A DNA stretch of 7,593 nt. It comes from Chitinophagaceae bacterium (GTDB taxonomy: Bacteria > Bacteroidota > Bacteroidia > Chitinophagales > Chitinophagaceae). The notes under the pieces were generated by a model. That model saw nothing but the letters and a program-made list of their open reading frames with translations. It did no database searches and was not told the DNA's origin. The DNA lies in assembly GCA_947472635.1 (NCBI GenBank), contig CANJDY010000131.1, forward strand, positions 1 to 7,593, written 5' to 3'. The position numbers and the translations under genes were made by a program. Of this stretch, positions 3,762-7,593 are shown one piece after another (positions within the stretch are counted from its first letter, which is position 1; every line of letters begins with the position of its first letter).

Positions 3762-3769
3762 CATCTTTG
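3762..3769 (+). promoter_or_regulatory. Probable -7 element of the trp operon promoter
   Basis: CATCTTTG, followed by CA, differs from TAnnTTTG only in the first base and resembles the usual TAnCTTTGCA form of this phylum. The -33 position (about 3738-3745) is a T run without a clear TTG. Transcription would start near 3774-3776, only a few bases before the leader-peptide ATG at 3779. A dyad, TTTGC-ACCA-GCAAA (3766-3779), covers the element and the start site. I found no better promoter between 3441 and 3779. Confidence 0.5.
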
Positions 3770-3778
3770 CACCAGCAA

Positions 3779-3832
3779 ATGAAAAATACAATTTTAAATA
3801 GCAATGGTTGGTGGTGGCAGTCAATATTTTGA
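3779..3832 (+). CDS. trpL: trp operon leader peptide, 17 residues with three tandem Trp
   Basis: The short ORF encodes MKNTILNSNGWWWQSIF and stops at TGA 3830-3832. Trp codons stand in a row at 3809-3811, 3812-3814 and 3815-3817 (residues 11-13); Trp is otherwise rare, so three in 17 is highly unlikely by chance. The ORF lies between a probable promoter and an intrinsic terminator 5' of trpE, the arrangement of classical trp attenuation. The peptide itself is expected to have no function: its translation measures charged tRNA-Trp. Stalling at the Trp codons would leave 3833 onwards uncovered, whereas a ribosome at the stop codon would reach to about 3843 and hide the antiterminator strand. 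The start at 3779 may be almost leaderless. Low sequence conservation is expected outside the Trp run. The assignment is by context and codon content, not by homology search. Confidence 0.88.
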   Translation: MKNTILNSNGWWWQSIF

Positions 3833-3879
3833 TGTGTCGCAACGCTATTGTATGTATACTATATTAAGGCCCCGACACA
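3833..3879 (+). promoter_or_regulatory. trp attenuator: antiterminator pairing
   Basis: TGTGTCG (3833-3839), directly after the leader stop codon, is perfectly complementary to CGACACA (3873-3879), which contains most of the 5' arm of the terminator. The two structures exclude each other. A third pairing, CAATG/GTTG (3802-3810) with CAAC.C.ATTG (3840-3850), nine pairs with two single-base bulges, would enclose 3833-3839 in its loop when no ribosome is present. A ribosome stalled at the Trp codons covers 3802-3810 and opens that stem. The logic is therefore: low Trp gives the antiterminator and read-through; ample Trp gives the terminator. These are pairings found by eye, without energy calculation. 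Confidence 0.75.
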
Positions 3880-3896
3880 ATGTGTTGGGGTTTTTT
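3870..3896 (+). terminator. Intrinsic terminator of the trp attenuator
   Basis: CCCCGACAC (3870-3878) pairs with GTGTTGGGG (3882-3890) over nine positions (one G-T) around the loop AAT, followed by TTTTTT (3891-3896). It lies 37 bases beyond the leader-peptide stop codon and 132 bases before trpE, with no long gene ahead of it, so it serves as a conditional terminator rather than the end of a gene. Confidence 0.88.
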
Positions 3897-4028
3897 ATTA
3901 TACTTACTACTGTTGAACCTAGCAGGAATAAGGGAAATTTAATGGCAAATCGCTTAATTGGCTCCATCACCAAGTTGATTTAAGTATGGTGTAGACTTTA
4001 AGGTAAAAACTTTTATTGGCTGAGAATT

Positions 4029-5447
4029 ATGAAAAAAATAAAGATACAAACTTCGTACAAAAAACTCCTAGCCGACGTGTATACCCCTGTAGGTATTTAC
4101 CTGCGGCTCAGGGATAGGTTTCGGGATACGATTCTACTAGAAAGTTCTGATTACCATGCTGGAGAAAACAGTTACACCTTTATTGGCATCAATGCAATTG
4201 CAGGTATTGAAATAAGGACGGCCGCTACTATTGAGTATAAACTGCCCGGTCAGGTACCTGAAAAAGTAAAAATAGCCAACCCTTCCACCGTGCCGGAATT
4301 ATTATGGGATTTTATGCAGCGATTTGAAATAGTTGAGGCTGCACCAAAGCCCATCAATGTGGCACAGGGATTATTTGGTTATTGTACCTATGATGCTGTC
4401 CAGTTCTTTGATTCCATCCAGTTAGAAAATGGTCACCAACAACCGGGCATTGATATCCCACTAATGCGGTATCGTTTATACCAATACGTTATCGCCATCA
4501 ACCATTTTAAAAATGAGCTGTTCATTTGTGAAAACAAGCTAATTGGTATTGAAAGTGACGTTGATGCAATTGAAAGCCTTATAAAAAGTAAGGACGTACC
4601 TACGTTTCCCTTTTCAACCAATGGCTTGGAGCGTTCTAACCTTACGGATTCGGCTTATATTGATATGGTAAAAAAAGGGATCGCCAGTTGTCACAGAGGA
4701 GATGTATTTCAGATAGTGCTGAGTCGACGATTCCAGCAAGCTTTTTCGGGGGATGAATTCAACGTTTACCGCGCCCTACGAAGTATTAACCCAAGTCCCT
4801 ATTTATTTTATTTCGATTATGGCGACTATAAACTGATGGGGTCGTCTCCGGAAAGCCAGCTCATTGTTCAAAATGGCAAGGCTATTGTTCATCCAATTGC
4901 CGGCACATTTAAAAGAACAGGAAATGATGAAACGGATAAGGCATTGGCCATACAATTGGAAAATGATCCCAAAGAAAATGCGGAGCATGTAATGCTGGTT
5001 GATCTGGCGAGAAATGATTTAAGCCGAATGTGTAGCGAGGTGGAAGTTACCCAATACAAAAAGGTAAATTATTACTCTCATGTAATTCATTTGGTAAGTG
5101 AGGTAATCGGAAAGGTAGGTGCTGAAACAAATCCATTTAAGTTGCTAGCGGTTAGCTTTCCGGCTGGTACTTTGAGCGGAGCTCCTAAATTTAAGGCAAT
5201 GCAATTGATCAATGAAAATGAGCCCACAGGAAGGAGTTATTATGGTGGTGCCATTGGCTATATGGGATTTGACGGAAGTTGTAACCATGCCATTATGATC
5301 CGCACTTTTTTGAGTAAGCAAAATACCCTTTTTTATCAGGCGGGTGCTGGTATTGTGGCTGCAAGTAGCCCAGAGAGCGAGCTGCAGGAAGTAAATAATA
5401 AATTGAATGCTTTAAAACAAGCCATTGTATTGGCACAAAATATCTGA
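4029..5447 (+). CDS. trpE: Anthranilate synthase component I
   Basis: This cytoplasmic enzyme subunit converts chorismate and ammonia to anthranilate, the first committed step of tryptophan synthesis, with TrpG supplying ammonia from glutamine. The 472-residue length is normal. The N-terminal LLESS (36-40) is the motif that in TrpE binds the feedback inhibitor tryptophan. The C-terminal chorismate-binding domain shows GSSPES (271-276), PIAGTFKRTG (289-298), EHVMLVDLARND (319-330), SFPAGTLSGAPK (377-388), YYGGAIGYMGF (404-414) and QAGAGIVAASSPESE (437-451). These and the direct linkage to trpG, trpD and trpC favour TrpE over PabB or isochorismate synthase. ATG 4029 gives the proper N-terminus; the 132 bases between the attenuator terminator and this start hold no other convincing gene. 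It ends one base before trpG, suggesting translational coupling and equal amounts of both subunits. Expression is probably set by the attenuator at 3779-3896. Confidence 0.97.
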   Translation: MKKIKIQTSYKKLLADVYTPVGIYLRLRDRFRDTILLESSDYHAGENSYTFIGINAIAGIEIRTAATIEYKLPGQVPEKVKIANPSTVPELLWDFMQRFEIVEAAPKPINVAQGLFGYCTYDAVQFFDSIQLENGHQQPGIDIPLMRYRLYQYVIAINHFKNELFICENKLIGIESDVDAIESLIKSKDVPTFPFSTNGLERSNLTDSAYIDMVKKGIASCHRGDVFQIVLSRRFQQAFSGDEFNVYRALRSINPSPYLFYFDYGDYKLMGSSPESQLIVQNGKAIVHPIAGTFKRTGNDETDKALAIQLENDPKENAEHVMLVDLARNDLSRMCSEVEVTQYKKVNYYSHVIHLVSEVIGKVGAETNPFKLLAVSFPAGTLSGAPKFKAMQLINENEPTGRSYYGGAIGYMGFDGSCNHAIMIRTFLSKQNTLFYQAGAGIVAASSPESELQEVNNKLNALKQAIVLAQNI

Positions 5448-5448
5448 A

Positions 5449-6018
5449 ATGAAAATATTGGTATTTGATAATTATGATTCTTTTACTTATAATCTAGTAC
5501 ACTTGGTTGAAAAAATCCTGCACCAAAAAGTGGATGTATTTCGCAATGACCAGATACCATTAGAAGCAGTGAAAGCTTATGATAAAATCATTCTTTCTCC
5601 TGGACCAGGAATACCAGAAGAGGCAGGGTTGCTGTTACCTTTAATTAAAGAATACGCTTCCAGTAAATCCATTTTGGGAGTTTGTTTGGGCCACCAAGCA
5701 ATTGGTGAAGCCTTTGGTGCAAAATTGGTCAACTTGGATAAAGTGTACCATGGTGTTGCGACTCCTATAACCGTTACCAATCCTAATTCAAAAATTTTGA
5801 AGGGAATGGGCGATACAATAGAAGTGGGGCGCTATCATTCTTGGATAGTGAGCGACAAAAATTTGCCTGAAGAACTTGATATTACTGCAGTAGATAGTAA
5901 TGGATTTATTATGGGTTTGCAGCATAAGCAATTTGATGTGCAGGGAGTGCAATTTCATCCAGAAAGTGTACTCACGCCTAACGGAGAAAAAATGATGCGT
6001 AATTGGCTTGGGTTATAA
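5449..6018 (+). CDS. trpG: Anthranilate synthase component II, glutamine amidotransferase
   Basis: This 189-residue class I glutamine amidotransferase releases ammonia from glutamine for TrpE. The catalytic triad is visible: C79 in GVCLGHQ (77-83), and H170 and E172 in VQFHPES (167-173). SPGPG (50-54) forms the oxyanion region, and the opening ILVFDNYDSFTYNL is typical of TrpG/PabA. It is a stand-alone domain, not fused to TrpD as in enteric bacteria. I start it at ATG 5449, one base after the trpE stop; an upstream in-frame TTG at 5425 would overlap trpE and add eight residues that the family lacks. In some bacteria this subunit also serves PabB in folate synthesis; whether it does here cannot be seen. 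A 126-base gap follows before trpD. Confidence 0.96.
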   Translation: MKILVFDNYDSFTYNLVHLVEKILHQKVDVFRNDQIPLEAVKAYDKIILSPGPGIPEEAGLLLPLIKEYASSKSILGVCLGHQAIGEAFGAKLVNLDKVYHGVATPITVTNPNSKILKGMGDTIEVGRYHSWIVSDKNLPEELDITAVDSNGFIMGLQHKQFDVQGVQFHPESVLTPNGEKMMRNWLGL

Positions 6019-6144: not shown

Positions 6145-7131
6145 ATGAAAAAAATATTAAGTTTTTTATTTGAACACAAAACACTTTCTCGGGAACAAGC
6201 AAAGGAAGTGCTGATCAATATTGCAAAGGGGATTTACAATGAAAGTGAAATCACTTCATTTATTACTGTGTACCTAATGCGTTCCATTACCATTCCTGAG
6301 CTGCAGGGTTTTAGGGATGCATTGTTGGAATTGTGTATCCGGGTAGACTTGGATGGAATGGAAGTATTGGATATTGTAGGTACCGGAGGGGATGGGAAAA
6401 ATACATTTAATATTTCTACGCTGAGTTGTTTTATTGTGGCAGGCACAGGAAATAAGGTGGCCAAACATGGCAACTACGGGGCATCTTCCATCAGTGGTTC
6501 CAGTAATGTGATGGAGCAGTTAGGTTATCGGTTTACCAATGATGTAGCAACCTTACGTGAAGAGCTTGCAACGGCCAATATTTGTTTTTTACACGCGCCT
6601 CTTTTTCACCCTGCATTAAAAACAGTAGGCCCCATTCGTAAGAATTTGGGCATTCGTACCTTTTTTAATATGCTGGGACCAATGGTAAACCCTGCTTTCC
6701 CGAAACACCAACTCGTAGGGGTATACAATCTTGAAATGGCTAGAATTTATAATTATCTGTTGCAACAAACTGGTAATAATTTTACCATTATCCATAGCCT
6801 TGATGGCTATGATGAAATTTCATTGACGGGCGATACTAAAGTAATTACCAATGAAGGGGAAAAAATTATCAGTGCCGAAGTGTTGGGTAAGCGAGTGGTA
6901 AATGCTGCAGATATTTATGGTGGAGATACAGTAGAAGCGGCAGCAAAAATATTCATTGATATTTTGGAGGGAAAGGGAACTTGGGCGCAGAATGCAGTAG
7001 TGCTGGCTAATTCGGCTATGGCATTGCAGTGTACAGGGCTATACAAAACCTATGATGAATGTTACCAGTTGGCAGTGGAAAGCTTGGAGAGCGGGAAGGC
7101 ATTGGCTGGACTAAAAAAACTTTGCAAATAA
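6145..7131 (+). CDS. trpD: Anthranilate phosphoribosyltransferase
   Basis: This cytoplasmic enzyme transfers phosphoribosyl from PRPP to anthranilate, the second step after TrpE-TrpG. The 328-residue length is typical. A helical N-terminal domain (about 1-65) precedes the catalytic domain with the glycine-rich PRPP loop DIVGTGGDGKNTFNIST (76-92, GTGGD at 79-83), KHGNYGASSISGSS (107-120) for anthranilate and PRPP contacts, and RTFFNMLGPMVNP (171-183). DGYDEIS further on is the usual metal-binding acidic segment (commonly DELS or DEIS). All key motifs are intact. It is the short, unfused form. The start is ATG 6145; an ATG at 6126 is out of frame. The 126-base gap to trpG shows no TAnnTTTG promoter, so it is probably read from the same transcript; a possible stem at 6045-6082 lies in that gap. 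Confidence 0.97.
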   Translation: MKKILSFLFEHKTLSREQAKEVLINIAKGIYNESEITSFITVYLMRSITIPELQGFRDALLELCIRVDLDGMEVLDIVGTGGDGKNTFNISTLSCFIVAGTGNKVAKHGNYGASSISGSSNVMEQLGYRFTNDVATLREELATANICFLHAPLFHPALKTVGPIRKNLGIRTFFNMLGPMVNPAFPKHQLVGVYNLEMARIYNYLLQQTGNNFTIIHSLDGYDEISLTGDTKVITNEGEKIISAEVLGKRVVNAADIYGGDTVEAAAKIFIDILEGKGTWAQNAVVLANSAMALQCTGLYKTYDECYQLAVESLESGKALAGLKKLCK

Positions 7132-7208: not shown

Positions 7209-7593
7209 ATGAATATTTTAGATACCATCATTGCCCATAAGAAAATTGAAGTTGCTAGCAGCAAAGCGCGGGTGAGTAGTGTCGAATTGATGCAAAGTGA
7301 TTTATTTAAACGATCCACTTTTTCATTGAAACAATTTTTGCTCGATGAAACCAAAACCGGAATCATTGCTGAGTTCAAGCGCCAGTCACCTTCCAAAGGT
7401 GTTATCAATAGCACGGCAGATGTAGTAGAAGTAACCGCTGCATATACTGCTCATGGGGCTAGTTGCCTTTCGGTTCTTACAGATGAACATTTCTTTGGAG
7501 GATTTGAGCAGGATCTTCGAAAAGCCAGAGTGAATAATATTCCCATCCTTCGAAAGGACTTTATAATTGATGAGTACCAAATTATAGAGGCAA
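7209..7593 (+). CDS. trpC: Indole-3-glycerol phosphate synthase, C-terminus off the right edge
   Basis: The frame is open from ATG 7209 to the edge, giving 128 complete codons of a protein usually about 250-270 residues long. The enzyme closes the indole ring from CdRP (made by TrpF) to indole-3-glycerol phosphate, in the cytoplasm. Visible landmarks of the (beta/alpha)8 barrel are IIAEFKRQSPSKG (52-64) with the catalytic E55 and K57 and the substrate-binding SPSKG, LSVLTDEHFFGG (87-98), and ILRKDFIIDEYQI (113-125) with the catalytic general acid K116. N-terminal residues ILDTIIAHKKIEV match the family's opening helix. The gene lies 77 bases after trpD in the same direction and should belong to the same operon; trpF, trpB and trpA would be expected beyond the edge. 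Whether a TrpF domain is fused cannot be seen. Confidence 0.96.
   Translation, partial: MNILDTIIAHKKIEVASSKARVSSVELMQSDLFKRSTFSLKQFLLDETKTGIIAEFKRQSPSKGVINSTADVVEVTAAYTAHGASCLSVLTDEHFFGGFEQDLRKARVNNIPILRKDFIIDEYQIIEA

Follow-up and report, generated by a model that had tools for sequence, protein, structure and literature searches.

Tryptophan leader of the trpEGDC operon

The genes trpEGDC of a Chitinophagaceae bacterium (assembly GCA_947472635.1, contig CANJDY010000131.1) are very probably controlled by a ribosome-mediated tryptophan transcription attenuator. The device lies ahead of trpE in the window, i.e. the whole stretch of 7,593 nucleotides that was analysed. Its anatomy, its conservation among relatives, compensatory changes in its hairpins and an in-silico competition between its pairings all support attenuation. 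This is the mechanism proposed in the initial annotation, which conservation and in-silico geometry now back; from the sequence, we further infer translation of the leader, ribosome stalling, co-transcriptional timing and a response to tryptophan. The mechanism is classical and its kind already known, and the variant is unrecognised by Rfam. Besides this variant itself, the new findings are that its stop codon slides, that its mRNA is predicted to be near-leaderless and that parallel leaders precede his genes.

Table 1. Features of the trp leader and operon in the window
Feature	Position	Strand	Basis or remark
-7-like element of the Bacteroidota primary sigma factor, CATCTTTG	3762..3769	+	predicted; TTTG end and spacing to ATG
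Leader peptide ORF, MKNTILNSNGWWWQSIF (then stop)	3779..3832	+	17 codons; ATG 3779, TGA 3830-3832
Three tandem Trp codons (sensor)	3809..3817	+	read in the window; conserved in relatives
Strand 1 (Trp codons and next codons; partner 3829-3847)	3809..3824	+	RNAalifold, inspection
Strand 2 (partner of strand 1; pause/protector hairpin)	3829..3847	+	RNAalifold, inspection
Antiterminator strand TGTGTCG, directly after the stop codon	3833..3839	+	exact complement of 3873-3879
Intrinsic terminator (3:4 hairpin and T run 3891-3896)	3866..3896	+	terminator scan; covariation in relatives
Strand 3, CGACACA	3873..3879	+	partner of 3833-3839
trpE	4029..5447	+	PF04715 and PF00425 (Pfam); ATG 4029
trpG	5449..6018	+	PF00117; TIGR00566 above cut-off
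trpD	6145..7131	+	TIGR01245 above cut-off
trpC, truncated at the window end	7209..7592	+	PF00218

The ORF, Trp codons, complement, hairpin, T run and trpE start had all been annotated exactly, to the base. TrpE scored below the cut-off of TIGR00564 in family profile searches; despite this shortfall, its operon context leaves little doubt about its identity. Elsewhere in the window, a hairpin with a poly-T run (1992-2020), 3' of a YceI-like gene (1393-1962) and overlapped by several sub-threshold Rfam models, is likely the terminator of that gene. The minus strand of positions 1-714 encodes the first part of a family 43 glycosyl hydrolase, with no relation to the trp genes.

The terminator core (CCCCGACAC, 3870-3878, with GTGTTGGGG, 3882-3890) is composed of nine pairs, one G-T and the rest Watson-Crick, with an AAT loop and six T; the terminator scan lengthened the stem to 13 pairs (3866-3894). 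An additional 1:2 hairpin, absent from the initial annotation, joins 3809-3824 to 3829-3847; the -7-like element at 3762-3769 had not been annotated either. The layout had been described as more compact than the enteric one. This holds insofar as the antiterminator strand begins at the stop codon, but the Trp codons do form an enteric-like 1:2 hairpin. With 1:2, 2:3 and 3:4 pairings predicted, the set follows enteric logic and the device is less reduced than was first held. The leader fold of the window was better than that of most shuffles (z -2.76; 2 of 200 equally good), and the antiterminator pairing by itself was mildly significant (p 0.035 against shuffles). The case for this pairing is strong because it is conserved, and does not come from the window alone.

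The proposed mechanism would operate as follows. A ribosome would load at the 5' end of the leader, or very close to it. With Trp-tRNA plentiful, it would reach the stop codon and cover 3833-3839, the terminator would form and transcription would end. With Trp-tRNA scarce, a stall on the Trp codons would cover strand 1 and leave strand 2 free; the latter would pair with 3873-3879, the terminator would be blocked and trpE transcribed. Without translation, the Trp codons and strand 2 would pair with each other and the terminator would form.

Conservation of the leader among relatives

A TrpE-based search matched at least 590 stretches, the best 80 of which were kept as loci. Their titles mostly designated Chitinophagaceae, Chitinophagales or unclassified Bacteroidetes, a few being less exact and one, a 'Williamsia' MAG, evidently mislabelled; the closest of these 80 came from a Ferruginibacter MAG (86%). 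Locus L061 offered only 1 nt upstream of trpE and was excluded from all counts, which left 79 usable relatives. Within these best matches, all 79 displayed a Trp leader peptide, with WWW in 69, WW in 4 and a single Trp in 6. The Trp codon run, whose loss in close relatives would have spoken against attenuation according to the initial annotation, was thus kept. Likewise, a loose script found a terminator behind the leader in 79/79 of these relatives. A script for leader ORFs with WW or WxW was positive in 73/79. The six loci in which the automated scan saw no WW (L060, L063, L072, L075, L076 and L077) resembled counter-examples, but inspection revealed single-Trp leaders of the same layout; they are counted as leaders and listed separately.

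The window belongs to a sub-type, named A2, with L001, L002, L003, L007, L050 and L071, where the peptide ends in WWWQSxx (WWHTI in L050) and TGTGTCG or a variant of it serves as antiterminator strand after the stop codon. The majority sub-type has a peptide similar to WWWHTNSxRGL, with GGGG as antiterminator strand within or beside the last codons; its complement is the CCCC of the terminator. A third antiterminator sequence was encountered in the Chitinophaga type (L074, L078 and L080). The stop codon occurred +9 to +27 nt past the last Trp codon, either before or after the antiterminator strand, whereas the best duplex for the antiterminator (searched for from +6 onward) began between +8 and +18 in 69 leaders out of 71, and at +25 and +26 in the other two.

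The distance from leader stop to trpE was highly variable among relatives and amounted to 196 nt in the window. This bears on a control by Rho or at the level of translation, in which the ORF would feed ribosomes to trpE or expose a Rho site. A role in reinitiation has indeed been proposed for leader ORFs located near genes (PMC4833913), but the long and very variable gap, together with the covariation of the terminator stem (see below), makes such upstream-ORF control highly improbable here.

A strict script, applied to at most 500 nt ahead of trpE, retained ATG ORFs of 8-45 codons with WW and a terminator no more than 120 nt downstream. It was positive in 71 of the 80 real regions (window included), against 0/1600 dinucleotide shuffles, 0/80 reverse complements and 0/578 other 500-nt stretches of the loci. 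The nine failures were the six loci without WW and L007, L018 and L073, which failed on the terminator. That the ORF arose by chance beside an unconnected terminator, constitutive or serving as operon punctuation, could be suspected from the 196 nt separating it from trpE and from the complete leader folding into the terminator in 69 to 71 of 71 cases per ribosome state. Such a coincidence is scarcely credible in view of the shuffles and other stretches, and of a duplex start that holds its place although the stop codon moves.

Another draw of genomes gave a TrpE match in 170 of 198. A leader with at least two Trp was found ahead of trpE in all 45 genomes of this draw whose TrpE was at least 48% identical, at least two of them being already among the best 80 loci. 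A terminator occurred within 120 nt in 44 of these 45 leaders (loose script, the whole locus and both strands being searched for 30), and a hairpin with a longer loop was seen by eye in L153. Most TrpE matches of the draw were 35-43% identical, and the five such upstream regions that were examined look proteobacterial. Since the draw seems to include proteobacterial regions, leader frequency is given for TrpE of at least 48% only and not as a phylum-wide rate.

As a separate observation, a repeat, GTGCGACGCAAnnnAnnnTGAATA, or its first half was present between terminator and trpE in several loci (L025:2901, L033:2941, L036:2957, L015:2928 and L008:2929). With up to 2 mismatches, this pattern occurred in 404 copies in the genome of L025, 147 in that of L036 and 0-29 in six others; the reversed control pattern gave 0 in all 8 genomes.

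Covariation and codon choice

Pairings were followed mainly in set A3, i.e. 35 leaders of the other sub-type, without the window and its kin; set A4 was omitted from the 2:3 counts, as strand 3 was out of register in part of its MAFFT alignment. In each of the three alignments A2, A3 and A4, RNAalifold recovered the 1:2 hairpin with no structure supplied. In A3, paired percentages and covariation scores of 2:3, 3:4 and 1:2 exceeded those of all slid versions and of nearly all shuffles.

Compensatory changes were clear in the terminator, where 96.4% of A3 cells were paired and 14 showed double changes (3.9 in shuffles). They were also clear in the 1:2 hairpin, with 94.1% of cells paired (34-61% when slid) and 16 double-change cells (7.0 in shuffles), 12 of these 16 falling in a single pair beside the Trp codons; the number of 1:2 pairs with double changes was not above controls (112/500 shuffles as high; slid versions had as many as 6 such pairs, the real one 3). 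Most pairs involving Trp codons change on one side only (e.g. G-C to G-U) because these codons cannot vary.

The antiterminator had 79.4% of A3 cells paired, against 22-59% when slid and 77.9% when shuffled (6/500 as high). Its helix is short and its double changes few (4 cells); pairs with double changes were not more numerous in A3 than in shuffles (121/500 as high) or in one slid version. The GGGG/CCCC core pairs well, while 33-81 and 36-78, which lie outside it, do not form in 18/35 and 22/27. Strands 2, 3 and 4 were altered in concert in L034 and L035 (GGGG to GAGG, CCCC to CCTC and GGGG to GAGG, respectively), the matching U of strand 1 being already present, as in nine other rows; strands 2 and 3 were altered together in L031, where the U of strand 1 also already matched. 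Among the 7 sequences of A2, 97.9% of antiterminator cells were paired and one pair was doubly changed in 2/7; 2:3 covariation in this small set was not significant (103/500 shuffles as high). When antiterminator energies were compared with shuffles, only 33 of 71 leaders reached p 0.05. Of the co-variation anticipated for the two mutually exclusive pairings, both were therefore kept, with clear compensatory changes in the terminator but few in the antiterminator.

Codon choice was also examined for the end of the peptide. Among 45 leaders reading W-H-x-N, Asn was AAC in 45/45 and Thr ACA in 36/38, against 29% AAC and 28% ACA in the trpE genes of this set of loci. Because these codons are nearly fixed in the leaders and not in trpE, the conserved tail appears to be kept for RNA pairing; this suggests that it is held by the RNA rather than by any function of the peptide.

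In other phyla, T-boxes, which respond to uncharged tRNA, and the protein TRAP control trp genes by way of an upstream terminator and its competing antiterminator. A sensing of Trp by a T-box or a TRAP-like protein, the ORF being incidental, would thus share the general arrangement seen here, but its likelihood is close to negligible: codons remain in-frame Trp while other bases vary, and the Rfam scans of the window and relatives listed no T-box.

Covariance model R1 was built from the 35 leaders of A3, i.e. with the sub-type of the window excluded, and run on 40 other loci. In the window, it matched 3806-3901 with 40.0 bits (E 1.1e-5; next best match 18.8), and each of the 40 loci gave a match with E <0.05 in the leader region (in L073, the terminator part only). 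Since non-leader matches reached 29.2 bits (on the reverse strand of a terminator), the weakest leaders (L080, L007, L074 and L073; 22.5-27.0 bits) are inseparable from the background.

Ribosome position and choice of hairpin

Competition between pairings was assessed with partition functions on the nascent RNA up to the 5' arm of the terminator, for 71 leaders (70 relatives and the window). A ribosome covers about 12 nt beyond the first base of the A-site codon, and this value was used throughout. The antiterminator had a mean probability of 0.73 when the ribosome was stalled on the last Trp codon. The value was 0.20 for a ribosome placed at the stop, and 0.23 (median 0.04) in its absence. 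The stalled state had the highest value, above that at the stop, in 71/71 leaders; the geometry initially put forward, whereby a Trp stall frees 3833-3839 and a ribosome at the stop covers it, hence holds in silico. The separation was not absolute, as a probability of at least 0.3 was retained in 22/71 with the ribosome at the stop and in 19/71 without ribosome. Shuffling the upstream segment lowered the stalled value to 0.40, and 44/71 leaders had no more than 2 of 40 shuffles as high.

At equilibrium, a stalled ribosome did not keep the full-length leader from folding as the terminator in 69/71. Because the terminator wins in that state too, the decision to antiterminate must be kinetic.

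Relationship to known leader families

Whether this class of leader was catalogued for the phylum had been left to a search of Rfam. Such a class exists, namely RF01692 ('Bacteroid-trp'), proposed in 2010 for Bacteroidetes (Weinberg 2010, PMC2864571), but the window falls below its cut-off. Rfam scans with E up to 5 or 10 did not list RF01692 in the window; at gathering (49 bits), it was found in 0/20 relatives and passed the cut-off in 0/6 of the relatives' genomes. The best trp leader in these six genomes was that of L002, with 32.4 bits (cut-off 49), which was also the best match in its genome (G004); the leader of L003 figured among weaker matches (23.2 bits). In an apparently mixed set of 247 genomes, 24 were over the cut-off, the members being mostly leaders like WWWNNLRQSS with ACGTCGTGA/TCACGAC. 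Conversely, R1 matched some RF01692-type leaders weakly, with 27.2 bits for L090 (over the RF01692 cut-off) and 32.1 for L118 (below it), non-leader matches reaching 29.2.

RF01692 and the present leader share their occurrence in Bacteroidota, their position ahead of trpE, a peptide with tandem Trp and a terminator behind it. The Trp codons are moreover located inside a conserved hairpin in both, as judged from alignments of L002 and of the member L090, and by analogy for the window. The two differ in the tail of the peptide (NNLRQSS and the like in RF01692, QSIF or HTNSxRGL here), in antiterminator and terminator sequences and in a 5' UTR predicted to be mostly shorter here. The leader of the window thus seems to be one form of a type widespread in Bacteroidota, with common descent a possibility.

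The enteric Rfam family Trp_leader (presumably RF00513) was likewise not listed in the window at E up to 5 or 10. Matches with E <1 over the leader to NsiR1, STnc180, Spot 42 and other Rfam families were rejected, being far below gathering and including the terminator. Membership in RF04312 ('trpB motif') was also rejected (18.4 bits for the window and 24.5 for L002; cut-off 59). The leader had no match when compared with plasmids, and no description of a Chitinophagaceae trp leader was found in the literature searched, which comprised sources other than subscription journals. A comparative paper published in 2010 by Lopatovskaya and colleagues may mention Bacteroidetes.

Like the enteric trp attenuator, the device combines a tandem-Trp peptide, 1:2, 2:3 and 3:4 hairpins and a terminator with T run (PMC1183508); in contrast to it, strand 2 begins at the stop codon or inside the ORF, and Bacteroidota initiate translation without Shine-Dalgarno pairing (PMC6847099). 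In Sinorhizobium meliloti, trpL-trpE(G) similarly has an attenuator-controlled trpE and a leaderless leader-peptide ORF, but the phylum is unrelated and its leader RNA, once released, has a trans-acting role there, as has the peptide (PMC7298713). Within Bacteroidota, leader-peptide attenuators of amino-acid operons were suggested in Flavobacterium psychrophilum, where pheA, hisG and other genes have structured 5' elements that lack Rfam matches; the passage on these elements describes neither a trp leader nor any anatomy (PMC9723704).

Promoter and 5' end of the leader

In 71/80 leaders, window included, an element ending in TTTG precedes the ATG of the leader by 4-9 nt (by 7 nt in 40); in the remaining nine, it is farther away or absent by the 4-9 nt rule. 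The first base deviates from the TAnnTTTG consensus in the window, and across leaders it is usually C instead of T. No clear TTTG was seen near -33 in the window. A scan for sigma-70 promoters was set aside because promoters here are of another type. In Flavobacterium johnsoniae, transcription starts 4-5 nt past the -7 element (PMC6847099). A start is thus predicted near 3774, with a 5' UTR of about 5 nt in the window and of about 0-5 nt across leaders, and the leader mRNA is predicted to be near-leaderless. Leaderless mRNAs are reported to make up 3.7% in B. thetaiotaomicron (5' UTR under 10 nt) and 5.5% in F. psychrophilum. At 30 RF01692-type loci, the gap was 4-7 in 8 and at least 12 in 22; because of the latter, near-leaderlessness is not universal.

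Leaders ahead of hisG

Leaders with three to five tandem His (e.g. MKQITHIHHHH) occurred ahead of hisG in 7/7 genomes (G001-G006 and G097; L169-L175). By eye, a terminator lies behind the peptide, and the general layout is as in the trp leader.

Conclusions

Attenuation of trp genes in Bacteroidota is hereby extended past what Rfam recognises, and some 120 natural variants are supplied (80 leaders and the 45 of the second draw, a few being shared). Among them, the stop codon slides across the antiterminator strand at a fixed distance of the latter from the Trp codons, a variation that serves as a natural experiment for the footprint of the ribosome. Attenuation requires a ribosome close behind RNA polymerase, so the leader allows the coupling of transcription and translation to be tested directly in Bacteroidota, which do not rely on Shine-Dalgarno pairing. 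We tentatively suggest, as a possibility with the odds somewhat against it, that amino-acid attenuators of the Chitinophagaceae type may work by means of a 5' end at or within a few bases of the AUG, which would load a ribosome upon emerging from RNA polymerase, so that transcription and translation of the leader would start in step. If true, coupled transcription and translation would exist in Bacteroidota, and the trp and his leaders would provide a ready-made assay for it.
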